This document shows positions 36,328-57,325 of a DNA stretch of 64,000 nt, piece by piece; within the stretch, counting starts at the first letter, position 1, and every line of letters begins with the position of its first letter. Source of the stretch: Streptomyces laurentii (GTDB lineage: Bacteria > Actinomycetota > Actinomycetes > Streptomycetales > Streptomycetaceae); contig AP017424.1 in the NCBI GenBank assembly GCA_002355495.1, positions 620,001 through 684,000 of the forward strand. The letters run 5' to 3'. A program made the translations under genes and the position numbers. The notes under the pieces were generated by a model that saw only the letters and a program-made list of their open reading frames with translations, ran no database searches and had not been told where the DNA came from.

Positions 36328-38292
36328 ATGCCGAACCGGCCCCGTACCCCCCTCGCCCTCGCCGTCCCCGCGCTGCTCGCGGTCGCCCTCCTGCTGCTGC
36401 CGCTCGCCGGCATCCTCGCCCGCACCGAATGGGGCGAGATCGGGACGCACCTGAGCCGGCCGGGCACGGTCGAGGCGCTGAAGCTGTCGCTGGTCGTCTC
36501 GTTCTGGGCGCTCGGGCTGTCCCTGCTGCTCGGGGTGCCGCTGGCGTGGCTCCTGGCGCGGGTGCCGTTCCGGGGCAAGGCGTTCGTCCGCAGTCTGGTG
36601 CTGCTCCCGATGGTCCTGCCGCCCACCGTCGGCGGCGTGGCGCTGCTGCTCGCCTTCGGGCGGCGCGGACTGCTCGGACCCTGGCTGGAGGACACCTTCG
36701 GCATCATCCTGCCCTTCCACACCTCCGGCGCGGTGCTCTCCGCGACGTTCGTGGCCATGCCGTTTCTGGTGATCAGCCTGGAGGGCGCGCTCGCCGGACT
36801 GCGCCCCCGGTACGAGGAGACGGCGGCGTCGCTGGGCGCCTCGCCGCTGCGGGTGTTCGGGACGGTGACGCTGCCGATGGTGGCGCCCGGGCTGCTCGCG
36901 GGCGCGGCGCTGACCTGGGCGCGGGCGCTCGGCGAGTTCGGGGCCACGATCACCTTCGCGGGCAACCTGCCGGGCACCACCCAGACGCTGCCGCTGGAGG
37001 TCTATCTGCTGCTGCAGGACGACCCGGAGGCGGCGACCTCGGTCTCGCTGCTGTTGCTCGTCATCGCGATGACGGTGCTGGTCGCGCTGCGCGGACGCTT
37101 CGCCGCGGCTCCCCGGTCGGGCCGGGCGGCCCCCGGGACCCCCGGCGCGGCCGACGTGCCCGGGGACCCGGCGGGCGCCGGGGTCGGAGCCGTACCCCTG
37201 CCGGACACTGCCCCGGCCCCGGACCCGGCCCCTGCTCCGGAGCCGGAGGCCGCGGGACGCTGGGCGCTGCACGCCGAGGTCGACGGCTTCGTCCGGCTCG
37301 TCCTGGACGCCGAGCCCGGCACCACGATCGCCGTCGTCGGCCCCAACGGCGCCGGGAAGACCACCCTGCTGCGCGCCCTGCTCGGGCTGACTCCGCGCGC
37401 CCATGCCGCCCTCTCCCTCGGGGACACCGACGTCACCGCGCTGCCGCCGCACCGCCGGCAGGTGGCGTGGGTGCCGCAGGACGGCGCGCTGTTCCCGCAT
37501 CTGACGGCGCTCGCCAACACCGCGTACGGCCTGCGGGCCCGCGGGGTGCCGCGCGCCGAGGCCCGGCATACGGCCCGGATGTGGCTGGACCGGCTCGGCG
37601 TCGGCGCGCTCGCCGAACGACGTCCGGCGCAGCTGTCCGGCGGGCAGGCCCAGCGGGTCGCGCTGGCCCGGGCGCTGGCCGCCCGCCCCCGGCTGCTGCT
37701 GCTCGACGAGCCGCTGGCCGCCCTCGACCAGACCACCCGCGCGCAGGTACGGCACGCCCTGCGCGGGCATCTCGCCGGGTTCGGCGGGGTCTGTCTGATC
37801 GTCACCCACGACCCGGTCGAGGCGGTGTCGCTCGCCGACCGGGTGCTCGTCCTGGAGGACGGGCGGGCGCTCCAGGACGCCTCGCCCGCCGAGGTCACCC
37901 GGCATCCGCGCTCGCCGTGGGTGGCCCGGATGCTGGGCCGCAACGCCTGGCCGGGCACGGCGACCGGCGACGGGCTGGCACTCGCCGACGGCGGCACGCT
38001 GGTGGCCGCCGAACCGCTGCCGGCCGGGGCGGCGGCGCTGGCGGTCATCCCGCCCGAGGCGGTGGCCGTGCACCGCGAACGGCCGGGTGGCAGCCCCCGT
38101 AACGTCTGGCCGGGCACCGTACGGGAGATCACCGCGAGCGGCAGCCGGCTGCGGGTCCTGGTCACCTCGGACCGGGTGCCGCCGCTGGTCGCCGAGATCA
38201 CCCCGCAGGCGGCCGCCGACCTGGGTCTCGCGGACGGCACGCCGGTGTGGACGGGCGTGAAGGCGACCGAGGTGACCGTCGTCCCGCTGTGA
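36328..38292 (+). CDS. modBC: Molybdate ABC transporter, permease and ATPase fused in one chain
   Basis: A 654-residue fusion. Residues 1-255 are a ModB permease with about five membrane helices and the EAA-like loop EETAASLGASPLRVFGTVTL. After a Pro/Ala-rich linker (about 255-310) comes the ModC ATPase: Walker A VGPNGAGKTT near 338, signature LSGGQAQRVALARAL near 437, Walker B LLLLDEPLAALD, and a His in VTHDPVEA. The C-terminal part (about 560-654) is a TOBE/Mop-like regulatory domain. The ATPase is shortened at its N terminus. Single-chain ModBC proteins are known in actinomycetes. Confidence 0.94.
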   Translation: MPNRPRTPLALAVPALLAVALLLLPLAGILARTEWGEIGTHLSRPGTVEALKLSLVVSFWALGLSLLLGVPLAWLLARVPFRGKAFVRSLVLLPMVLPPTVGGVALLLAFGRRGLLGPWLEDTFGIILPFHTSGAVLSATFVAMPFLVISLEGALAGLRPRYEETAASLGASPLRVFGTVTLPMVAPGLLAGAALTWARALGEFGATITFAGNLPGTTQTLPLEVYLLLQDDPEAATSVSLLLLVIAMTVLVALRGRFAAAPRSGRAAPGTPGAADVPGDPAGAGVGAVPLPDTAPAPDPAPAPEPEAAGRWALHAEVDGFVRLVLDAEPGTTIAVVGPNGAGKTTLLRALLGLTPRAHAALSLGDTDVTALPPHRRQVAWVPQDGALFPHLTALANTAYGLRARGVPRAEARHTARMWLDRLGVGALAERRPAQLSGGQAQRVALARALAARPRLLLLDEPLAALDQTTRAQVRHALRGHLAGFGGVCLIVTHDPVEAVSLADRVLVLEDGRALQDASPAEVTRHPRSPWVARMLGRNAWPGTATGDGLALADGGTLVAAEPLPAGAAALAVIPPEAVAVHRERPGGSPRNVWPGTVREITASGSRLRVLVTSDRVPPLVAEITPQAAADLGLADGTPVWTGVKATEVTVVPL

Positions 38293-43926: not shown

Positions 43927-45616
43927 ATGCCGGATGTGGACGTGTGTGTGGTCGGAGCGGGGCCGGTCGGCCTCACCCTGGCGATCGCCCTGCGCGGGCT
44001 CGGGCTCGGGGTGCGGATCGTCGACCGCGCCCCGGCCGCCAAGCGTGAGGCGCGCGCCCTCGTCCTCTGGCCGCGGGCGCTCGAGGCCCTGGACTCCCTC
44101 GGGGTCGCCGGGATCCTGCGCCGCAACGCGGTGGAACTGGCCCGGGTCACCATCCACGGGCGCGGCCGGCGGCTCGGGGAGCTGACCACCGGCTGGCACC
44201 GCTCCGCGCACAACCGCCCCGTCAACATCGAGCAGCACGACATCGAGCGGCTGTTGTGCGCGGAACTGGCCGGCCGCGGCACCGAGGTCGAGTGGGACAC
44301 CGAGGTCACGGACGTCAAGGTGCACGAGGACCGGGCCGAGTTCACCCTGACCCGGCCCGACGGCACCGCAGAGTCGGGCACCGCCGCCTGGATCGTCGGC
44401 TGCGAGGGCACCGCGAGCGTGGTCCGCGACCGGCTGGGCATCCCCTTCGAGGGCCGGCGGCGCACCGGGCTCCAGGTCGTCCAGGGCAACGCGCACCCCG
44501 AATGGCCTCTCGGCGAACAGCAGGGCCACGGGCACATCTTCCTGGCCCGCGCCGCTCCCTCCTCGCCTTCCCGCTGCCCGACGGGGCGTACCGCTTCTTC
44601 TGCTTCCGCGACGACCCCGACCCCGCGCTGACCGCGCCGCCCACCCTGGACGAACTGCGCGACCTGGTGGCCGACACCGCGCGGATGCCGCGGCTGCGCC
44701 TCACACCCCCCGAGCGGCCCTGGCTGAACCGCGCCCGGTTCAGCGACCGGATCGCCACCCGGCTGCGGCACGGCCGCGGACTGCTCGCCGGGGACGCCGC
44801 GCACGCCTGGGCGCCCGTCGGCGGCCACGGCATGAACGTGGGCATGCTCGGGGCGCACAACCTCGCCTGGAAGCTGGCCGCCGTGCACCGCGGCGAGGCC
44901 GACGACCGGATCCTCGACACGTACGACACCGAACAGCGGGCCCTCGCCGTGCGCTACGTCCGCGAGATGCGGCTCAACTTCATGGAACTGCCGCTGCCTC
45001 CACTGGGCTACCGGGCCTTCTCCGCCACCGTGCCCGTCGTGCTCGCCCTGCGCGGCTTCCAGCGCCGGCTCGACCGTCAGCTGAGCGACCTCGGCCGCAA
45101 CCACCGCCACAGCGCCCTGTCCTGGCAGCGCTCCACGCCCGGACTCGTCCGGGAGCGCGGCCCCCGGGCCGGCGACCGGATGCCCGACATCCGGGTGCGG
45201 TCGGGCGGGCCGGCCGCGGGGCCCGTACGGCTGCACACGCTGCTGCGGTACGACGCGTGGACACTGCTCGTCGACGCGGCGCGGGCCGCCGACCCGGCCG
45301 TACGGCGCTCGCTGGAGGAACGGTGCCGGCGCGGCCCCGTCCCCCTCCGGCTGCTGCCCGTCACCCCCGCCGACGCCGCCGAGGCCCGGCTGTTCGGCCG
45401 CCCCGGCGACCTGCGGCTCGTCCGGCCGGACGGGTACGTGGGGCTGGTGGCGCCGGTGGCCCGGCCCGAGGCGCTCGACGCGTACCTGGTCACGCTCGCG
45501 CCCCGGCGCCCCGACGCCCATCCCCCCTCGGCCCCGTCCGCCCCCGGCGCCTCGTCCCCCAGTCGTTCTCGTCGCCCTCGCCTTCCTCCCCACCCCCCTC
45601 CGACACCGCTCAGTGA
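43927..45616 (+). pseudogene. FAD-dependent aromatic monooxygenase, frame broken twice as sequenced
   Basis: It encodes a p-hydroxybenzoate-hydroxylase-type flavoprotein of about 563 residues if repaired. Frame one gives VCVVGAGPVGLTLAIALRGL and the DG-like WIVGCEGTASVVRDRLGIPF. At 44548-44560 the homologous frame moves by one base to RSLLAFPLPDGAYRFFCF and GLLAGDAAHAWAPVGGHGMN. Near 45500-45550, in runs of C, a second shift is needed to reach the TGA at 45614-45616, where third-position bias is best. As written, the middle frame reads straight into the next gene. It is either decayed or carries two missed bases. It could supply an extra oxidation, as FAD oxygenases do in indolotryptoline clusters. 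Confidence 0.75.
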
Positions 45617-45629
45617 CGGGAGTCAGCCC

Positions 45630-47123
45630 ATGTCCCAGCAACGGACGCGCACCCGCGGCACCGTCACCGTCATCGGCGCGGGGATGGCCGGCCTGGTCGC
45701 CGCGTACGAACTCGAACGCCTCGGCCACCGCGTGGAGATACTGGAGGGCAGCCGCCGGCTCGGCGGCCGCGTCCGCACCCACCGCTTCGGCGCGCACGAG
45801 GGTGCCCCTTTCGTCGAACTCGGCGCCATGCGGGTCCCCACCGCCCACCACCGCACCATGGACTACATAGACCGGCTGGGGCTCGGCGACCAGGTGCGGC
45901 CGTTCGTCACCCTGCTGTCCGAGGAGAACGCCCTGCTCGCCACGAGCGGCGGCCACGTCCGGCTGCGGGACGCGCCCCGCCGGCTCATCGCGGACGTCCG
46001 CGCCTCGCTCGCCCGCGACGACTACCGGGACGAGACCGTGGTGTTCGGCGCCTGGCTGGCGGCCGTCGTCGACGCCATCGCGCCGCCCGCCCTGCGCACC
46101 GGGCTGCGCGCCGACCTCGCGCGCGACCTCCTCGACCGCGTCGAGCGGATCGACCTGACGCCCCATCTGCGCGGCGACCACAAGGACCGCATCGACGTGC
46201 ACGGCCTGTTCGCCGCCCATCCGGACATCCGCTCCGCGTGCGGCACCCGGCTGAACGGCTTCCTCGACGACATCCTCACCGAGACCAGCCCCGAGCTGAT
46301 CCGGCTCGCCTGCGGCATGGACCAGCTGGTGCAGCGGCTCGCCGCCCGGATACGCGGTCCGATCTGGCTCGGCCAGGAGGTCACCGGCGTGGAGGTGTCC
46401 GGCGACCAGGTGCGGCTGCGCATAGGGCGCGGCCCGCTGGCCGTCGTGCGCCCCGCCGACCTGGTGCTGTGCACGGTGCCGTTCTCGGTGCTCCGCGGGA
46501 TGGTCCTGCGCGGCTTCGACGAGGACAAGCTGTCCGTCGTCCGGGAGGTCGTCTACTGCCCTGCGACCAAGGTGGCCGTGCACGTCCGCGAGCCGTTCTG
46601 GGAGCGGGAGGGCATCCGGGGCGGCGCCTCCTTCAGCGGCGGGCTGATCCGGCAGACGTACTATCCCGCCGCCCCGGAGGACGGCGCGCACGACGCCGGG
46701 GAGCGGGGCGCCGCGCTGCTCGCCAGCTACACCATCGGGGAGGACGCCGACATCCTCGGGCGGATGCCGGTCCGCCGGCGGCACCGCGTAGTGCTCGACG
46801 AACTCGCCCGGATGCACCCGCAGTTGCTGCGCCGCGGGATGGTCCGGGGGGTGACCGGGGTGGCGTGGGGCGAGCATCCGTGGACGGTCGGCGGCTGCAC
46901 CATCCGCTGGGGGCGGGACGCGGCGGCCTGCGAGGAGGAGCGGCTGCGGGCGACGCGCCCGCAGGGGCGGCTGTTCTTCGCGGGCGAGCACTGTTCGTCG
47001 GAGCCCGCCTGGATCGAGGGTGCGGTGGAGTCGGCCCTGGTGGCGGTCCGGGCGATCGAGGGGCGTACCGGCGCCCGGTTCGCGTCCGGCCAGGGCCCGG
47101 AGATGTGGGAGGCGGCGGCGTGA
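45630..47123 (+). CDS. rebO: RebO/StaO-type FAD-dependent L-tryptophan oxidase
   Basis: A 497-residue flavin amine oxidase. In the bisindole pathway this enzyme oxidises L-tryptophan (or chloro-tryptophan) to indole-3-pyruvate imine. The ADP-binding motif VTVIGAGMAGLVAAYELERL covers residues 12-31, followed by GSRRLGGRVRTHR and the substrate-Arg segment FVELGAMRVPTAHHRTMD. The C-terminal FAD motif is RLFFAGEHCSSEPAWIEGAV. The ATG at 45630 has GGGAG seven bases upstream. The downstream synthase starts inside its stop codon. The context with RebD, RebC and RebP homologues makes the assignment firm. Confidence 0.92.
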   Translation: MSQQRTRTRGTVTVIGAGMAGLVAAYELERLGHRVEILEGSRRLGGRVRTHRFGAHEGAPFVELGAMRVPTAHHRTMDYIDRLGLGDQVRPFVTLLSEENALLATSGGHVRLRDAPRRLIADVRASLARDDYRDETVVFGAWLAAVVDAIAPPALRTGLRADLARDLLDRVERIDLTPHLRGDHKDRIDVHGLFAAHPDIRSACGTRLNGFLDDILTETSPELIRLACGMDQLVQRLAARIRGPIWLGQEVTGVEVSGDQVRLRIGRGPLAVVRPADLVLCTVPFSVLRGMVLRGFDEDKLSVVREVVYCPATKVAVHVREPFWEREGIRGGASFSGGLIRQTYYPAAPEDGAHDAGERGAALLASYTIGEDADILGRMPVRRRHRVVLDELARMHPQLLRRGMVRGVTGVAWGEHPWTVGGCTIRWGRDAAACEEERLRATRPQGRLFFAGEHCSSEPAWIEGAVESALVAVRAIEGRTGARFASGQGPEMWEAAA

Positions 47124-50100
47124 GCGTCTTCGACACCCCCCGGCTGTACTTCGCCGGCACCGCGCTCACCCGGCTGCCCACCGGTCCGCGCGGGGCGGCC
47201 GGGGCCGGTCTGCTCGATCTGGCCACGAACACGGTCCTGGTGCCGGACGGCCCGGCCGCGGACTGCCACGCGCTGCTGGCCGAACGGGGGGCGCGCGGCG
47301 GCCACTTCTCCGGCAACGGCCACTTCTCGGTGGACGCCCGGATCACGGCCGTGGAGGGGCCGGAGGGCCGCCCGGCGGACCCGGCGGACCCCGGCGGCGG
47401 TCCGGCCGGGGGCACGGCGGGGGCGGCCGATCCGCTGGTGGGGCGGGCCGTGGACCTGTGGGGGCACTACAACCCGTATCTGGGCACGACCGCGAACCGG
47501 GCGCGGGTCTTCGACGTCGACCCGGCCTCGGCCTGGACGACGACGCTGATGGCCGGCCGGTTCGCGCTCGGCCGGGAGGGCCGGTCGCACGACTCGGGGT
47601 ACGTGTGCCTGGGCGACGTGACGGGGTTCCAGCCGCCGCGCTGGCAGTCCTTCGCCCCGGTGCCGTCCGTACTTCACCAGTTCGCCGTGCCGGCGGGGCC
47701 CGCCCTCGACTGGCCGGACGGGCCGGCCGCCGGCTCCCCCGCGGCCGTCGCGCTGCGCGCCGCCGCCGGGCGACACGGCGGGCTCCTGGTGCAGTTCACA
47801 CTGGCCGCGGACGGGGAGCCGGGGACGCCCGGGCACGGGCACACGGGTCCCGGCGACGCCCCGCAGCGCTGGCGGCTGCACGGGGTGATCGCCCCCTGGC
47901 GCCCCGAGGAGCCGCGCACCCATCCGGCGGGCCGGCTGCTCGTCCCGTACGGCTGCGCGGGCTCGTCGGGTTCCGAGGGGGCCCCGGATCGCCCGGGCTC
48001 TTCGGGCTCTTCGGGCGGGGGCGCGCGGGGGCGGCGGGCGGGGATCTGCTCGGTGTGGGTGACATCCGACCGGGCCGTGCTCAACCTGCCGTTCGGCCGG
48101 CCCGGGACCGGTGACCTGGAACTGCGGACGACGGTGACGGACCGGCTGGTCGCGGTGGTGCGGGACACCGGCGCCCGGGGCCCCGGGGTGGTGACGGTGC
48201 CGGTCGCCGGGGCGGGCGCGGCCCGGGCGGACGACGAGGGGCTGTGCCTGGTCGGCGCGGACGGGACGGGGAGCGGCCGGGTGGTGTGGCTGCGGGAGCG
48301 CGAGACGGTCGTGGTCGTGGACGACGCCGCGCTGTTCGTCGAGCACCCGGACCGGGAGCGGGGCGAGGACCACGCCGTGGAGGTGGCGGTCCGGGCGTTC
48401 GTCCGGGGCCGGCCGGCGGCCGGACGGACGGTCGTCGTCCGGCAGTTCGCCAACCCCCGGGCCCTGCCCCGCGATCCGGTGGCCTCCGCGCCGGACGCGC
48501 GCAGTGGCCGGCTGCGGATCGTCGAGCTGCGTCCGGGGCGGCTCGCGGAGGGGGAGGCCGCGCCGGGGGCGGAGCCTGAGGCGGGACCTGAGGCGGGAAC
48601 TGAAGGAGCGGAGGGTGCCGGGGCCGGCGAGACCTCCGGGACTCCTGAGACCCCTGGGACTTCTGGGGCCGCTGAGGCTCCTGAGATTTCCGGGGTTCCT
48701 GAGACTGCCGACGCCCCCGGCGCGTCCGACACCACCGACGCCGCCGACGCCTTCGGCGAGCGGTGCCGGGTGGTGACCGACGAGCAGGGGTGCGGCTGGT
48801 TCACGCTGCGCGGGGCGCGGGCCGGGACGGCCCGGCTGCTGCTCGCGGCCGACACCGAGGACACCCCGCCCTGCCCGCTGGACGCCCCCGGTTCGGCCGC
48901 CGCCGCGTACGACGACGCGGACGCGCTGGGCTGGTGGGCGGGCGCGGGCGGGGCGCACGTCCGGGTACTCGCCGACGACTGGCACCTGGACGCCGTACCG
49001 AACGAGCAGGTGTCCTTCGAGCTGCTGCACCGGGAGGTCTTCGCCTGCTACGAGCAGCTGTATCCGTTCATGCGCGACGAGGTGTTCAGCCTTGAGGACC
49101 GGTGCAAGGTCGAGACGTACGCGAAGCTGATCTGGCAGATGTGCGATCCGGCGAACCGGGACCGCACGTACTACATGCCGCCGTCCCGGGACCTGACGCT
49201 GCCGAAGGCCCGGCTGCTCCTGACGTATCTGCGGACGCGGGCCGCCGCCGACGCGGTGCTCCCGGTCAGTACGCCCGCGGCGGCCTCGGCGGCGCCGCGG
49301 ATCACCACCCGGGCGCAGTTGCGGACGGCGCTGTGGCTGGCGGTCTCGGTGGAGCTGGCGACCTCGCTCCAGTACCTGTACGCGGGGTACTCGCTGCCGA
49401 CGCACGCGGCCGGGTTCGCGTACGTGCGGCGCGGGGTGTGGACGCCCCGGCAGCTCCGGCTGGCCTGCGGCGACGGTGGGGAGACGCTGCGCAAGGGGAT
49501 CCGGGACAGCGTGTTCGAGGTGGCCCGCGAGGAGATGATCCACTTTCTCGTCGTCAACAACATCCTGACGGCGATGGGCGAGCCGTTCCATGTGCCGGCG
49601 ATCGACTTCGGCGCGCCGGGACGGCTGCCGATGCCGCTGGACTTCGCCCTGGAGCCGCTGGACCTGGCGAGTGTGCAGCGGTTCATCGCCATCGAGCGGC
49701 CCGAGCGGCTGGCGGGCGGTGCCCAGGGTGCCGGCCCGGCGGAGGAGAGCGTATGGCCCGGCGGCTCGTCCGGCCCGGCCGGGCTCCTCGGCTCCGCCGG
49801 ATCCGCGGGTACGGGAGGCCGTGCCGTCTCCGCCAAGGAGGCGACGGCGACGCCCTTCGGTTCGCCGAGCGAGCTGTACACGGCGATCCGCGACGGGCTG
49901 ACCCGGGTCCCGGACCTGTTCCTGGTGGACCGGGGCCGGGGCGGCGGCGAGCACCATCTCTTCCTCGGCCGGACGGTGGACGCCCGGCACCCCGACTACC
50001 AGCTGGAGGTCGACGACCTGCCGAGCGCCCTGTTCGCGGTGGACTTCGTCACCGAGCAGGGCGAGGGCGGGGTGCTCGACGCGCCGGGTCCGGTGCCCGA

Positions 50101-50650
50101 GTCCCACCACGACACCTTCGTCCGGCTCGGCGAACTCCTCATGAGCGAGCGGGCGGACGGCCCCGGCGGGCAGGGCGCGCCGTGGAGTCCGGCGTATCCG
50201 GCGCTGCGCAACCCGACGCTGGACCCGACCCATCCGGGCCGGGCGACGATCCGCGATCCGCACGCCCGCGAGGTGACGCTGCTGTTCAACCGCTGCTACT
50301 TCCTGATGCTCCAGCTGATGGTGCAGCACTTCGCGGAGAGCCCGGACGCGAGTCTGCGGCGCTCGCCGCTGATGAACACGGCGATCGACGTGATGACCGG
50401 CATGATGCGCCCGCTGGCCGAGCTGCTCGTGACGCTGGACTCGGGCTGGCGGGGGCGTACGGCCGGTCCGTCCTTCGAACTGGAGGAGCCCCCGGTGGCC
50501 CTCCCCCGGCCCGACGTGGCCCGCCGGGCGTTCGCGATGCGCTTCGGGCATCTGGCCCGGATGGCGCGGGCGTGCGCCGGGGTGCCCGACCGGGTCCCCG
50601 AGTTGATGGCCTTCTACGCCGAGCGGTTCCGTGCGGAAGGAGAACGGTGA
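47120..50650 (+). CDS. rebD: RebD/StaD/VioB-type chromopyrrolic acid synthase
   Basis: A 1176-residue enzyme that couples two indolepyruvate imines to a bisindole (chromopyrrolate in rebeccamycin and staurosporine; an unstable dimer in violacein). It opens with SVFDTPRLYFAGTALTRLPT, typical of the family. The ferritin-like iron-binding part is visible at about 735-810 (LAVSVELATSLQYLYAGYSL, then VAREEMIHFLVVNN with EExxH). It is longer than RebD or StaD because of a Pro/Glu/Thr/Gly-rich insertion at about residues 476-547 and another Gly/Ser-rich one at about 865-913. The GTG start overlaps the rebO stop (GTGA). Confidence 0.93.
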   Translation: MSVFDTPRLYFAGTALTRLPTGPRGAAGAGLLDLATNTVLVPDGPAADCHALLAERGARGGHFSGNGHFSVDARITAVEGPEGRPADPADPGGGPAGGTAGAADPLVGRAVDLWGHYNPYLGTTANRARVFDVDPASAWTTTLMAGRFALGREGRSHDSGYVCLGDVTGFQPPRWQSFAPVPSVLHQFAVPAGPALDWPDGPAAGSPAAVALRAAAGRHGGLLVQFTLAADGEPGTPGHGHTGPGDAPQRWRLHGVIAPWRPEEPRTHPAGRLLVPYGCAGSSGSEGAPDRPGSSGSSGGGARGRRAGICSVWVTSDRAVLNLPFGRPGTGDLELRTTVTDRLVAVVRDTGARGPGVVTVPVAGAGAARADDEGLCLVGADGTGSGRVVWLRERETVVVVDDAALFVEHPDRERGEDHAVEVAVRAFVRGRPAAGRTVVVRQFANPRALPRDPVASAPDARSGRLRIVELRPGRLAEGEAAPGAEPEAGPEAGTEGAEGAGAGETSGTPETPGTSGAAEAPEISGVPETADAPGASDTTDAADAFGERCRVVTDEQGCGWFTLRGARAGTARLLLAADTEDTPPCPLDAPGSAAAAYDDADALGWWAGAGGAHVRVLADDWHLDAVPNEQVSFELLHREVFACYEQLYPFMRDEVFSLEDRCKVETYAKLIWQMCDPANRDRTYYMPPSRDLTLPKARLLLTYLRTRAAADAVLPVSTPAAASAAPRITTRAQLRTALWLAVSVELATSLQYLYAGYSLPTHAAGFAYVRRGVWTPRQLRLACGDGGETLRKGIRDSVFEVAREEMIHFLVVNNILTAMGEPFHVPAIDFGAPGRLPMPLDFALEPLDLASVQRFIAIERPERLAGGAQGAGPAEESVWPGGSSGPAGLLGSAGSAGTGGRAVSAKEATATPFGSPSELYTAIRDGLTRVPDLFLVDRGRGGGEHHLFLGRTVDARHPDYQLEVDDLPSALFAVDFVTEQGEGGVLDAPGPVPESHHDTFVRLGELLMSERADGPGGQGAPWSPAYPALRNPTLDPTHPGRATIRDPHAREVTLLFNRCYFLMLQLMVQHFAESPDASLRRSPLMNTAIDVMTGMMRPLAELLVTLDSGWRGRTAGPSFELEEPPVALPRPDVARRAFAMRFGHLARMARACAGVPDRVPELMAFYAERFRAEGER
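48546..48762 (+). repeat. Degenerate low-complexity repeat inside the chromopyrrolate synthase gene
   Basis: A G+C-rich degenerate tandem repeat of units like CCTGAGACC / GGGACTCCTG encodes about 70 residues of Pro, Glu, Gly, Thr and Ala. Codons ending in T are far more frequent here than in the flanking gene, which points to slippage expansion rather than selected protein sequence. The frame stays open. Confidence 0.75.
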
Positions 50651-50654
50651 GGCG

Positions 50655-52307
50655 ATGAACACGTACACGTACCACAGGCCGGGTGAGCGCGGCGGCTGGG
50701 AGACGGACGTCCTGGTCGTGGGCGGCGGTCCGGTCGGTCTGTCGCTCGCGCTCGATCTCGCCCACCGCGGGGTGGACTTCACCCTGATCGAGGCGGGCGA
50801 CGGCGTCCCGGCCGATCCCCGGGTCACCACGGTCGGACCACGTGCCATGGAGATGTTCCGCCGCTGGGGCGTGTCCGGCACGCTGCGCGCCGCGGGCTGG
50901 CCGGACGACCACTGTCTGGACGTGGCCTGGGTGACGGCGATCGGCGGACACGAGATCCACCGGCTGCCGTTCGGCACGGTCGCCACCCGCCCGCTGCCCG
51001 AGCACACCCCGGAGCCGGAGGCGATCTGCCCGCAGCACTGGATGGCGCCGCTGCTCCTCGACCGGCTGGGCCACTACCCGGCCGGGCCGGTGCGCACCCG
51101 CTGCCGGCTGCTCGGGTTCACCACCGCGCCCGGCGGGGTGACGGCGACGGTGGCCCGGGCGGACGGCACCCGCTCCGAGGTGCGCGCGCGGTATCTGGTC
51201 GGCTGCGACGGGGCGGGGTCGTCCGTGCGGAAGATCTGCGGGATCGACGTGCCCGAGCTGTATCCGCCCCGGATGCTGCGCAACATCGTGTTCCGGGCGC
51301 CCGAACTGCCGCGCCTGCTCGGCCCGGACGCCCCGCTGCTGTACTTCCTCACCTCGCCGACCGGGCTGCGCTATCCGCTGCGCGTGATCGACGGCCGGGG
51401 GACGTACCGGCTGACCGCCCCGGTGACCGCCGAGTCCGCGCTGACCATGGTGCGGCGGGCGGTGGGCCTCGACACCCCGCTGACGGTGGAGGCCGACGGG
51501 GCCTGGCATCTGACGCACCGGGTGGCCGACCACTACCGCTCCGGCCGGGTGTTCCTGGCCGGGGACGCGGCGCACACGCTGTCGCCGTCGGGCGGCTTCG
51601 GCATGAGTACGGGGGTGTGCGACGCGGCCGACCTCGGCTGGAAGCTGGCCGCGGCGCTGGCCGGCTGGGCGGGGCCGGGGCTGCTCGACTCGTACGAGAC
51701 CGAGCGGCGCCCGGTGGCCGTGGCCGGGATCACGGAGGCCAACGTGAACCTGCGCCGCACCCAGGAACGGCGGCTGTCGCCCGCGCTCCTCGACGACACT
51801 CCGATGGGCGAGCGGGCGCGGGCCGCGCTCCGCCGGGAACTGGCCGCCTCCGATGTGGGGCGCGAGTTCGACCGGCCGGAGATGCACTTCGCGTACCGGT
51901 ACGTCTCGCCGGTCGTCGCGGCCGAGTCCGCCGACGGGGCGGGGCCCTCATCCGGGGCCGGGGTGAACACGTCGGCCCTGCCCGGGGCGCGGGCCCCGCA
52001 CGCGTGGCTGGCGCCGGGGCGCTCCACCCTCGATCTGTACGGGCGGGACTTCGTCCTGCTGGCGTTCACGGACGCCGTCGCGGAGGGCGTGGGCGCGGCG
52101 GCGGGTGAACCGTACGGGCTGGCACGGGCGTTCGCGGAGCGGCGGGTCCCGCTCCATGTGGTCCGCTGCACGGTCCCGGAGGTCGCGCGGCGCTACGAGC
52201 TGCCGTACGTCCTGGTCCGCCCGGACGGGCATGTGGCCTGGCGGGGCACCCGCCCGCCACGCGACCCCGGCGCGCTGGTCGATCTGGTGCGGGGAGCGGG
52301 CCGGTGA
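50655..52307 (+). CDS. rebC: RebC/StaC-type FAD-dependent monooxygenase
   Basis: A 550-residue flavin monooxygenase. With the P450 it directs oxidative decarboxylation and ring closure of chromopyrrolate to the indolocarbazole. The FAD motif VLVVGGGPVGLSLALDLAHR lies near residues 19-38. The stretches VTTVGPRAMEMFRRWGVSGT and EPEAICPQHWMAPLLLDRLG are close in form to RebC and StaC. The second FAD site is RVFLAGDAAHTLSPSGGFGM near residues 298-317, and a thioredoxin-like C-terminal domain follows. Whether the product oxidation level is RebC-like (imide) or StaC-like (lactam) cannot be decided by eye. Confidence 0.9.
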   Translation: MNTYTYHRPGERGGWETDVLVVGGGPVGLSLALDLAHRGVDFTLIEAGDGVPADPRVTTVGPRAMEMFRRWGVSGTLRAAGWPDDHCLDVAWVTAIGGHEIHRLPFGTVATRPLPEHTPEPEAICPQHWMAPLLLDRLGHYPAGPVRTRCRLLGFTTAPGGVTATVARADGTRSEVRARYLVGCDGAGSSVRKICGIDVPELYPPRMLRNIVFRAPELPRLLGPDAPLLYFLTSPTGLRYPLRVIDGRGTYRLTAPVTAESALTMVRRAVGLDTPLTVEADGAWHLTHRVADHYRSGRVFLAGDAAHTLSPSGGFGMSTGVCDAADLGWKLAAALAGWAGPGLLDSYETERRPVAVAGITEANVNLRRTQERRLSPALLDDTPMGERARAALRRELAASDVGREFDRPEMHFAYRYVSPVVAAESADGAGPSSGAGVNTSALPGARAPHAWLAPGRSTLDLYGRDFVLLAFTDAVAEGVGAAAGEPYGLARAFAERRVPLHVVRCTVPEVARRYELPYVLVRPDGHVAWRGTRPPRDPGALVDLVRGAGR

Positions 52308-54253
52308 GCGCCGGGCCCGCCGAGGGAGGACTGCCGGCCTTCGATCCGGCCCGGCTGGACCTGGCCGACCCGTACCCCGTCTACCGGCGCTACCGGGAGG
52401 CCGGGCCGGTGCACGCGGTCCGCCCGGCGGTGGTCCCGTGCGGCACGCGCGGGCCGACGACCCGGTACGTCTTCGGGTACGCGGAGGTGGCGCGGGTCCT
52501 CGCCCGGCGGGAGTTCGGCAGGACGGCGCCGGGCGCCGGCTCGGCGGCGCCGCTGCCACCCGGGTACGCGGTGCTGCGCGCGGTCGTCGAGAACTGGCTG
52601 GTGTTCCTCGACCCGCCCCGGCACACGGCGCTGCGGTCGCTGGTGGCGCCCGCCCTCGCGGCCGGTCCGGTGGCGGCGCTGCGGCCCGCGATCCGGCGGA
52701 CCGCGGGGCGGCTCGTCGACCGGCTGATGACACGCGAGAGCGTCGATCTCGTGGGGGAGTTCGCGGCACCGTTCCCGCTCCTGGTCATATCGGGCGTGCT
52801 CGGGGTGCCGGAGGAGCGGCAGGGCTGGTTCCGGGAACGGGCGCTCGCGCTGCAACGGGCGGGCGGGGCGCGGGTGGACCGGACCCTGGCGGGCATGGTG
52901 GAGGCGGACCGGGCGGCGGCCGAGCTCACCGCGTACTTCCGGCGCGAACTGGACGCCCGGCGCGGGCCGGGCCGGGACCGGGGGGATCTGCTGTCGGCGC
53001 TGGTGCGGGCCGCCGACGAGGAGACCTCGCTGTCGCCCGAGGAACAGACGGCGACCTGTGTGCATCTGCTGACGGCGGGACACGAGACCACCACGGGGCT
53101 GCTGGGCAAGGCGGTGCTCGCCCTGCTCGGCCGGCCGGAGCTGCGGGGCGAACTCCGGGCGGATCCGGGGATGTTGCCGGGGGCGGTGGACGAGTTCCTG
53201 CGTCACGACCCGCCGGTGCAGATGGTCACCCGGTGGGCACTGCGCGACACCGAACTCGCGGGTCACGCGATCCCCGCGGGCGACCGGATGGTCCTGGTCC
53301 TCGGCGCGGCGAACCGGGACCCGGCGTACTTCCCCGACCCGGACCGGCTCGACGTCCGCCGGGACACGGTGCGGCACTGCGCGTTCGGGCTGGGCATCCA
53401 CTACTGCGCCGGGGCCGGCCTGGCCCGCGCGGAGGCCGAGGCCGGGCTGGCGGAACTCCTCGCCCGGCTGCCCGCTCTCCAACCGGGCGTACGGCCGGAA
53501 GTGTCCGTGCGCTACGCGCCGGACTGGGTGTTCCACGGGCCCGAGCGGCTCACCGTGACCATGCCGCAGGCGGGCCAGGCTACCCTGCGCCCCATGACGC
53601 GGGACGCACCGCGCGCCCACTGGCAGCGCATCTACCAGGAGAATCCCGGCATGTACGGGGAGGAGCCGTCGGCGCCCGCGCGGTACGCGGCCGACGTGTT
53701 CGCGGCGGCCGGCGCCCGGGACGTGCTGGAGCTGGGCGCGGGTCACGGGCGTGACGCGCTGTACTTCGCCAGGCGGGGCTTCGCGGTGCGGGCCGCCGAC
53801 TTCAGCACGGTGGCCCTGGGGCAGCTCGCCGCGCGTGCCGAGGCCGCGGGGCCGGCCGGCCGGGTGACCACCGCCGTGGTGGACGTACGCGAGCCGCTGC
53901 CGTTCGCCACCGGGTCGGCGGACGCCGTCTTCGCGCACATGCTGATGTGCATGGATCTGTCGACGCGGCACATCGAGGAGCTGGCCGGCGAGGTCCGCCG
54001 GGTGCTCCGGCCGGGCGGCACGTTCGTCTACACCGTGCGGCACACCGGCGACGCCCACTACGGCACGGGGGTCGCGCGCGGCGACGACATCCACGAGCAC
54101 GGCGGCTTCGCGGTGCACTTCTTCCCGCGCGAGCTGGTGGAGCGGCTGGCCGAGGGCTGGGAGCTGCGGGAGGTCCACGCCTTCGAGGAGGGCGAGCTGC
54201 CGCGCCGGCTGTGGCGGGTCACGATGAGCGTGCCGGCCGCGTCCGCCGGCTGA
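52304..54253 (+). CDS. rebP: RebP/StaP-type cytochrome P450 fused to a SAM methyltransferase
   Basis: A 649-residue open frame with two enzymes. Residues 1-430 are a P450: I-helix LLTAGHETTTGLL near 257, ExxR EFLR near 296, and heme loop FGLGIHYCAG at 361-370 with Cys368 as ligand. RebP/StaP couples the two indoles of chromopyrrolate by aryl-aryl oxidation. Residues 431-649 are a class I methyltransferase: motif I VLELGAGHGRDALYFARRGF from 474, and a later VLRPGGTFVYTVRH. No stop lies between them, and the ATG at 53594 has no ribosome-binding site. The start GTG overlaps the rebC stop. The methylated position is unknown. Confidence 0.88.
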   Translation: MSAGPAEGGLPAFDPARLDLADPYPVYRRYREAGPVHAVRPAVVPCGTRGPTTRYVFGYAEVARVLARREFGRTAPGAGSAAPLPPGYAVLRAVVENWLVFLDPPRHTALRSLVAPALAAGPVAALRPAIRRTAGRLVDRLMTRESVDLVGEFAAPFPLLVISGVLGVPEERQGWFRERALALQRAGGARVDRTLAGMVEADRAAAELTAYFRRELDARRGPGRDRGDLLSALVRAADEETSLSPEEQTATCVHLLTAGHETTTGLLGKAVLALLGRPELRGELRADPGMLPGAVDEFLRHDPPVQMVTRWALRDTELAGHAIPAGDRMVLVLGAANRDPAYFPDPDRLDVRRDTVRHCAFGLGIHYCAGAGLARAEAEAGLAELLARLPALQPGVRPEVSVRYAPDWVFHGPERLTVTMPQAGQATLRPMTRDAPRAHWQRIYQENPGMYGEEPSAPARYAADVFAAAGARDVLELGAGHGRDALYFARRGFAVRAADFSTVALGQLAARAEAAGPAGRVTTAVVDVREPLPFATGSADAVFAHMLMCMDLSTRHIEELAGEVRRVLRPGGTFVYTVRHTGDAHYGTGVARGDDIHEHGGFAVHFFPRELVERLAEGWELREVHAFEEGELPRRLWRVTMSVPAASAG

Positions 54254-54295: not shown

Positions 54296-55045
54296 TCACG
54301 CCGCCCGGACCGCCGTCGTCCCCTCCAGCGCCGCCGCCGCTTGACCGGCGAGGTCGACGGCGACCAGGCGCGATTCCAGGGACGGCGGCGGGGAGCCGGG
54401 GGCGGGGGTGAGAAGGAAGCGGCCCTGGTAGTGCCCGCCCGCGACGGCCCGGAGTTCGACGGGGCCGTCCGGCCAGCCCTGCCGTTCCAGGTCCCAGATC
54501 CACCCGTCGACCTGGACGGTGCCGTCGGGGCGGAGCCGGGGCGGCCGACCGAGGAGCGTCCCGTACTCGAAGCGGCAGTCGGCGAGTCCGAGGAGCTCGA
54601 CGAGCTGGGAGCGGACGACCCGGACCAGGTCGTCGGGCGAGCGGCTGGATTCGGCCAGCCGGGTGGTGGTGTGCAGCCGCTCCAGATGGCGGGCGTCGCG
54701 GAGCGCGACGGTGCCGAGCAACCGGCCGCGGGCGCCGAGCCGGGAGACGATCAGCCCGACGAGCAGCAGCAGGACGGCGGTCTCGACGTCGGCCCGGCCG
54801 CGGATGTCGAGGCTCTGGTAGGGCGCCGTGAGGAAGAAGTCGAACCAGAAGGCCGCCGACAGCGCGGCGAGCGCGCCGGCCGGCCGGTGGCCGAGCGCGG
54901 CGACGGCGACGACCACGACGACCAGCAGCAGGGCCAGGTTGGTGGAGGTGAGGCCGGTGCGGACCGGTACGAGCGCGAGCGCGACGAGGAAGGGCGCGAG
55001 AACGGCGGCCGCGAGCGCGGCCACGTCCCGGAGCGGCATCCGCAT
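54296..55045 (-). CDS. DUF4118 (KdpD-like membrane sensor) protein without kinase domain
   Basis: A 249-residue protein. Three or four membrane helices (residues 8-105) form a KdpD-type DUF4118 domain (LAALSAAFWFDFFLTAPYQS is typical). A helical linker and a GAF-like cytoplasmic domain follow. There is no histidine-kinase or ATPase part, so it cannot phosphorylate by itself. The ATG at 55045 has GGAGG six bases upstream. It is divergent from a large APC permease across 228 bp. A potassium- or osmotic-sensing role next to that transporter is an inference from KdpD. Confidence 0.85.
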   Translation of the reverse strand: MRMPLRDVAALAAAVLAPFLVALALVPVRTGLTSTNLALLLVVVVVAVAALGHRPAGALAALSAAFWFDFFLTAPYQSLDIRGRADVETAVLLLLVGLIVSRLGARGRLLGTVALRDARHLERLHTTTRLAESSRSPDDLVRVVRSQLVELLGLADCRFEYGTLLGRPPRLRPDGTVQVDGWIWDLERQGWPDGPVELRAVAGGHYQGRFLLTPAPGSPPPSLESRLVAVDLAGQAAAALEGTTAVRAA

Positions 55046-55273: not shown

Positions 55274-57325
55274 ATGTCCACCCCTCCCCCCACCCGTACC
55301 GACCGCCTCCGTGCCTGGATGCTGGAAGGGCTGTCCGACATGGGCAAGGGGCGGCCCGGCACCGCCCCGCCTCCCCCGGGCGGCCCGGCACCCTCCGAGC
55401 CTTCGGGAGCGAAGGAGGGCACCACGAGCGCGGAGAGCGCGACGGAGGGAACGACCGAGGGTGCCGGCGCGGCGTCCGGAACCGGCCACCAGGGCCAGCC
55501 CTGGTGGCGGGTGATGTGCCTGACCGGTGTCGACTACTTCTCCACCCTCGGCTACCAGCCGGGCATCGCCGCCCTCGCGGCCGGACTGCTCTCCCCCATC
55601 GCGACGGTCGTGCTGGTCGTCGTCACCCTCGTGGGCGCGCTGCCGGTCTACCGCCGGGTCGCGGAGGAGAGCCCGCACGGCGAGGGATCGATCGCGATGC
55701 TGGAGCGGCTGCTGTCGTTCTGGAAGGGCAAGCTGTTCGTCCTGACCCTGCTGGGCTTCGCCGCGACGGACTTCCTCATCACCATCACCCTGTCGGCCGC
55801 CGACGCCTCCACCCACCTCGTGGAGAACCCGCACCTGTCGGCCACCCTCCACGACAAGCAGATGGTGATCACGCTCGTGCTCATCGCGCTGCTCGGCGCG
55901 GTGTTCATGAAGGGCTTCCTGGAGGCCATCGGCGTCGCGGTGGCCCTGGTCGGCGTCTATCTCGCGCTCAACCTGGTGGTCGTGACGACCGGCATGTGGC
56001 ACGTCCTGACCGAACGGCACGTGGTCACGGACTGGACGACGGCCCTGACCGCGCAGCACTCCAATGTCTTCGCGATGGTCGGCGTGGCGCTGCTCGTCTT
56101 CCCGAAGCTGGCGCTCGGTCTGTCCGGCTTCGAGACCGGCGTGGCGGTGATGCCGCACGTCAAGGGCGATCCGGACGACACCGAGGCCCGCCCGACCGGC
56201 CGGATCCGCGGCGCGAAGAAGCTGCTGACGACGGCCGCGCTGATCATGAGCGTGTTCCTCATCTGCACCAGCTTCGTGACCACGGTCCTCATCCCGCACC
56301 AGGAGTTCGAGGCCGGCGGCCAGGCCAACGGCCGTGCGCTCGCCTATCTCGCCCACGAGTACCTCGGCAACACCTTCGGCACCGTCTACGACGTGTCGAC
56401 GATCGCGATCCTGTGGTTCGCGGGCGCCTCGGCGATGGCCGGACTGCTCAACCTGATGCCGCGCTATCTGCCCCGCTACGGCATGGCCCCGCACTGGGCA
56501 CGCGCCGTGCGCCCCATGGTGCTGGTCTTCACCCTGGTCGCCTTCCTCGTGACGTGGATCTTCGACGCGAACGTGGACGCGCAGGGCGGCGCGTACGCGA
56601 CCGGTGTGCTCGTGCTGATCTGCTCGGCGGCCATCGCCGTGACGATCGCGGCGCGCAAGGCCGGCCAGCGCCGCTGGACGATCGGCTTCGGCGCCATCTC
56701 GGCCGTGTTCCTCTACACCACCGTCGTCAACGTGATCGAGCGGCCCGACGGCGTGAAGATCGGTGCCTGCTTCATCGCCGGCATCATCCTCATCTCCCTG
56801 GCCTCCCGGCTGGCCCGCGCCTTCGAGCTGCGCGTCACCGACATGGACCTCGACCCCATGGCGGAACGATTCGTCCGGGACGTCTCGCACCGGACGGCGC
56901 GGTTCATCGCCAACAAGCCGGGCCGCCGGGACGCGGCCGAGTACCGGGAGAAGACCGAGCAGATCCGCGCCGACAACGACATCCCCGAGCACGAGGACCT
57001 CGTCTTCGTGGAGGTGACGGTCACCGACCCGTCGGAGTTCGAGGCGAGCCTGACGGTACGGGGCGAGGTGCTGCACGGCCGCTACCGGGTGCTCACCGTG
57101 GAGAGCGCGTCGGTCCCCAACGCCCTCGCGGCCCTGCTGCTGCACGTCCGGGACGCCACCGGCATCCGCCCGCACATCTACTTCGAGTGGACGGAGGGCA
57201 GCCCCTTCGCCAACTTCCTGCGCTTCTTCCTCTTCGGGCAGGGCGAGGTCGCGCCGGTGACGCGCGAGGTGCTGCGCGAGGCGGAGCCGGACCGGTCCCG
57301 GCGGCCCCGGGTGCACGTGGGCTGA
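55274..57325 (+). CDS. APC-superfamily permease with large cytoplasmic C-terminal domain
   Basis: A 683-residue membrane transporter. A low-complexity N-terminal tail of about 75 residues comes first. Then come about twelve membrane helices (80-530) beginning [20 protein letters not shown], and a soluble domain (530-683). The helix-1 pattern GxDxxSTLGYxxG and the C-terminal domain resemble KimA-type potassium importers of the APC superfamily more than amino-acid carriers. That would suit the divergent KdpD-like DUF4118 gene. The substrate is inferred. Confidence 0.83.

Follow-up and report, generated by a model that had tools for sequence, protein, structure and literature searches.

A probable arcyriaflavin F-type operon in Streptomyces laurentii with a methyltransferase fused to its P450

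A compact group of genes on the forward strand of a 64,000-nucleotide stretch of the Streptomyces laurentii genome (the window; positions 620,001–684,000 of a single-contig 8.03-Mb genome) encodes, in order, a flavin-dependent hydroxylase (X), a tryptophan oxidase (O), a chromopyrrolic acid synthase (D), a second flavoprotein (C) and a P450 (P) that runs on into a methyltransferase. The original prediction saw in it an indolocarbazole cluster with an unusual enzyme set. Which pathway does this locus represent, which of its parts are new, and what would it make?

The family membership of the core enzymes is clear. The RebO/StaO-type oxidase O (45630–47123, +) matches the amine oxidase family (Amino_oxidase, E 1e-51) and has its own ribosome-binding site, GGGAG. 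The best model for the 1,176-residue RebD/StaD-type synthase D (47120–50650, +) is VioB (NCBIfam TIGR04492, E 1e-175), with a Ferritin-like domain in addition. C (50655–52307, +) contains, like X, an FAD_binding_3 domain, and its closest PDB match by sequence search is RebC (2r0c, E 3e-185); that of the P450 domain (52304–53560, +), which keeps the heme-cysteine motif FGLGIHYCAGA, is the indolocarbazole synthase StaP (2z3t, E 6e-121). The complete O-D-P core characteristic of indolocarbazole pathways (tryptophan oxidase, chromopyrrolic acid synthase and StaP-type P450) is thus present. D falls in an actinobacterial clade far from the VioB-type proteins of Pseudoalteromonas, which separates the locus from violacein pathways. 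The coordinates agree with the predicted tight, co-directional packing from O onwards, with 4-base overlaps at O/D and C/P and a 4-base gap at D/C. Within D, a low-complexity insertion rich in Glu, Ala, Pro and Gly (48400–48760) was observed, which makes the protein ~90–110 residues longer than in other loci of the arcyriaflavin F (acf) type.

The enzyme set itself is not unusual. A scan by D alignment of 84,980 species, each represented by a single genome, yielded 78 loci, and the same X-O-D-C-P order recurs in 11 other Streptomyces-type loci: SKN60, Root431, NBC_00572, S. gardneri, S. narbonensis, CB02980, R302, Microtetraspora glauca NRRL B-3735, S. roseolus, G015 and G293. As in these, all five genes of the window are read from the same strand, and no sugar or halogen genes accompany them. 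Trees of O, D, C and P placed each protein with its indolocarbazole family, as the original prediction demanded, and in all five trees, including that of X, the window groups with the other X-O-D-C-P loci (support 1.0 for the acf clade in the O, C and P trees; a clade of 11 in the D tree of 80), with SKN60 as its sister. O is 74–81% identical to its acf-type counterparts. In 2024, Lai et al. reportedly described the gene order acfXODCP in Streptomyces venezuelae ATCC 10712, with AcfX said to be a C5/C5′ dihydroxylase; S. gardneri and S. narbonensis are presumably members of the S. venezuelae group. This paper on S. venezuelae and its arcyriaflavin F (ChemBioChem, doi 10.1002/cbic.202400357) is cited as ref. 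27 in PMC13200232, and it is very probable that the window operon belongs to the same published family.

Some loci of the scan deserve mention. In S. roseolus JCM 4411 (L133), the D match begins only at residue 308 and that of the P450 is split, which may reflect a broken acf-type operon or errors in the draft. Cyanobacterial loci (Scytonema, Calothrix, Tolypothrix, Nostoc and Brasilonema; L088, L090, L091, L098–L104, L107, L119 and L129–L131) combine D with StaP-like P450s, often two of them, and sometimes a RebC-type C.

The nature of C bears on the core of the product. From a shared intermediate, RebC directs the pathway to arcyriaflavin A and StaC to K252c (PMC10851217). In the window, C has Arg 239, Thr 241 and Leu 216 (RebC numbering). 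Position 239 is Arg in the window and in the acf-type loci, and Asn in all loci of staurosporine layout, including those of Salinispora. Goldman et al. (2012) are said to have found that F216 and R239 matter for the RebC/StaC product switch. The Leu at position 216 of the window protein differs from the Phe of RebC and from the Val or Phe found in relatives (Val in the other acf loci). Because C keeps the RebC-type Arg239, an imide (arcyriaflavin) core is predicted, in line with the acf product. Across 50 C proteins (L061–L138), Asn239, nearly always with Val241, marks clusters of staurosporine layout and a few others (L077, L124, L126 and L127), and Arg239 the rest; residues 239 and 241 may thus serve as a simple marker to predict K252c-type versus arcyriaflavin-type cores.

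The truly unusual part of the cluster is the fused methyltransferase, an arrangement present in no other genome searched. As originally predicted, the fusion is real and in frame: a single open reading frame (52304–54253, +) leads from the P450 through a linker (53561–53593, +) into a 220-residue class I SAM methyltransferase (53594–54253, +; Methyltransf_25, E 4e-16) with an intact ELGAGHGRDA motif. When a junction query (1–367) was run against 247 Streptomyces genomes, both halves were covered in the window genome only, and a full methyltransferase was found in none of the 78 loci of the D scan. The nearest solved structure is CcbJ (E 4e-10), which is too distant to name a substrate.

The origin of this domain is illuminated by SKN60 (L061; NZ_JAHTMW010000016.1), which shares the window's neighbours on both sides (genes at 36328+, 39329+, 39999+, 40525−, 42778− and 55274+). 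Its X is intact, its P450 ends in TGA at the place matching the linker, and an ATG that abuts this stop (TGA-ATG) is followed in frame by a remnant of the methyltransferase motif, VDVLRLGAGHGRDA. This remnant differs from the window motif at 6 of 39 bases, whereas no other stretch in eight loci comes closer than 12 mismatches. Because the remnant lies directly after the P450 stop, the methyltransferase was recruited to the operon before the window and SKN60 lineages split. The alternative that the cluster inserted next to a methyltransferase gene already resident there was rejected, as the stand-alone homologues do not adjoin the flanking genes. A DUF4118 (KdpD-like) gene (54296–55045, −) also lies in the window between the operon and the permease gene at 55274; SKN60 lacks it there, and in NBC_00572 a DUF4118 gene and the orthologue of the permease gene are two genes apart, at a site removed from the operon.

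Whether the domain serves the pathway is less certain. Stand-alone homologues (65–74% identity, the nearest 71–74%) occur in ~40 of the 247 Streptomyces genomes and adjoin unrelated genes in all six contexts examined; because of these scattered contexts, the role of the methyltransferase in the indolocarbazole pathway is putative. A mobile stand-alone gene may instead have landed after the P450 and been fused to it by chance as a passenger without a pathway role. This reading deserves real weight, short of an even chance: besides the dispersed homologues, the domain is absent from every other indolocarbazole locus found and has been deleted in SKN60. Set against it, the fused domain is intact and keeps nearly all residues that are invariant among the stand-alone enzymes, and no separate ribosome-binding site is visible, so the methyltransferase would be made whenever the P450 is made. 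At the other extreme, the fusion could be a bifunctional enzyme that closes and methylates the indolocarbazole. Its product would then be a methylated arcyriaflavin, a compound not known from this pathway, and methylation would have replaced ring hydroxylation in this lineage; we consider this bolder proposal rather unlikely.

The original prediction took X to be an intact gene; it is split by a one-base deletion. The N-terminal fragment (43927–44631, +), an FAD_binding_3 hydroxylase of AcfX type, lies in a 237-residue open reading frame, leaves the frame of its relatives at 44548–44555 (+) and ends at a TGA. The C-terminal fragment (44556–45488, +), with the remaining FAD_binding_3 domain and Rng_hyd_C by Pfam, lies in a second frame. 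At the site of the lesion the window has 8 bases, CGCGCCGC, where 11 of 11 relatives have 9, coding for P-H/R-R; in these other acf-type loci, X is one open frame that reads GHIFLAP[HR]R[SA]LLVFPLP. Among 393 Streptomyces genomes, close matches to X are all full length, with the exception of the window's own, which matches only from residue 205. Pfam assigns FAD_binding_3 to positions 1–189 of the N-terminal fragment, which is 76–80% identical to X of other acf-type loci over residues 1–207, and the C-terminal fragment is 65–75% identical to its relatives.

Two ways in which the split X might still function were considered and rejected. Programmed frameshifting would call for a slippery heptamer, which is absent at the site, and the relatives differ by one base. 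The C-terminal half continues stop-free and in frame into the oxidase, where the relatives have a stop; a working X-O fusion protein is nevertheless discounted, as the frameshift lies upstream and O has its own conserved GGGAG and ATG.

With its frameshift, X has probably lost its function, or lost it recently. Neither half shows raised dN/dS against SKN60 (0.30 for the N-terminal and 0.36 for the C-terminal half; 0.22–0.38 for the other genes), and because of this the lesion would be an assembly error or have arisen only very recently. We regard a sequencing or assembly error as a substantial possibility, if somewhat below even: the lesion is a single one in a GC-rich run, the substitution ratios are those of intact genes, and X has an end branch in the window (0.12) no longer than in SKN60 (0.18). 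The quality of the genome speaks for a genuine deletion, with a single 8.03-Mb contig, 0.15% contamination and no further frameshift in ~10 neighbouring genes compared with SKN60. Were X to work after all, the product would be arcyriaflavin F, its methyl ether or an N-methyl derivative, of which a dimethoxy compound would be isobaric with chromopyrrolic acid; a hydroxylated product is expected only in the case of such an error. The extra oxidation that the original prediction allowed for is accordingly doubtful, since X is frameshifted here.

Relatives of X also occur elsewhere. In Streptoverticillium-like loci (L114 S. cinnamoneus, L116 S. mashuensis, L072, L110, L067, L106, L111, L113 and L120), one or two X paralogues, with 44–50% identity to acf X, lie convergent to O-D-C-P. 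Production of BE-13793C has been reported for S. cinnamoneus, with no hydroxylase gene identified in the bec cluster (PMC7024260); these paralogues are candidates for the C1/C11 hydroxylations.

Taken together, the locus is, with good confidence, a diverged arcyriaflavin F-type (X-O-D-C-P) operon to whose end this lineage added a methyltransferase, with a RebC-type C leading to the arcyriaflavin A imide, a probable loss of the X step and probable methylation. We infer the order of reactions from the enzyme families. O would convert tryptophan to an imine, two of which D would couple to chromopyrrolic acid; the P450 domain would join the indoles by aryl coupling, and C, with its Arg239, would turn the unstable product into the arcyriaflavin A imide. 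The X enzyme of relatives would then hydroxylate the indole rings, a step probably lost in the window through the one-base frameshift. The fused methyltransferase would probably methylate the indolocarbazole at the imide or an indole nitrogen, or at oxygen if X works. On sequence grounds, the operon is predicted to yield arcyriaflavin A, either as such or methylated. That the whole operon is decaying and makes nothing appears improbable: the frameshifted X, the loss of the methyltransferase from SKN60 and the apparent breaks in D and the P450 of S. roseolus JCM 4411 would fit such a course, but in the window O, D, C, the P450 and the methyltransferase all have uninterrupted reading frames, and the dN/dS of O, D, C and the P450 against SKN60 is 0.22–0.38.

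An apparently novel cluster is hereby corrected to a known operon type, in which tailoring by fusion is the new element. The window and SKN60 form a pair in which a tailoring domain has been gained, fused and lost, and another tailoring gene broken, between close relatives, which offers a small and testable case of diversification in indolocarbazole pathways.

Comparison with known systems places these features in context. The cladoniamide and BE-54017 clusters (PMC3158105) likewise have an extra FAD oxygenase and a methyltransferase beyond the core. The window differs from them in having D inside the O-D-C-P block and a methyltransferase fused to the P450, and in lacking X2, a hydrolase, a halogenase and a LAL regulator; a cladoniamide-type pathway was rejected on the absence of the X2, hydrolase and halogenase genes. 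The O, D, C and P core is common to rebeccamycin (RebC-type) and staurosporine (StaC-type) clusters, and C of the window is RebC-type at position 239. Unlike those clusters, the window has no adjoining halogenase, glycosyltransferase, sugar genes or regulator; in agreement with the original prediction, a Pfam scan of the flanking genes found no halogenase, sugar or exporter genes. Neither the Asn239-type C of staurosporine and K-252a clusters nor their genes for a C–N linking P450 or glycosyltransferase were found. The acf cluster, with its reported gene content, matches the window in the X-O-D-C-P set and order and in having no sugar or halogen genes, and against the acf-type loci the window stands out by its frameshifted X, by proteins ~60–80% identical to theirs and by the methyltransferase fused to its P450.
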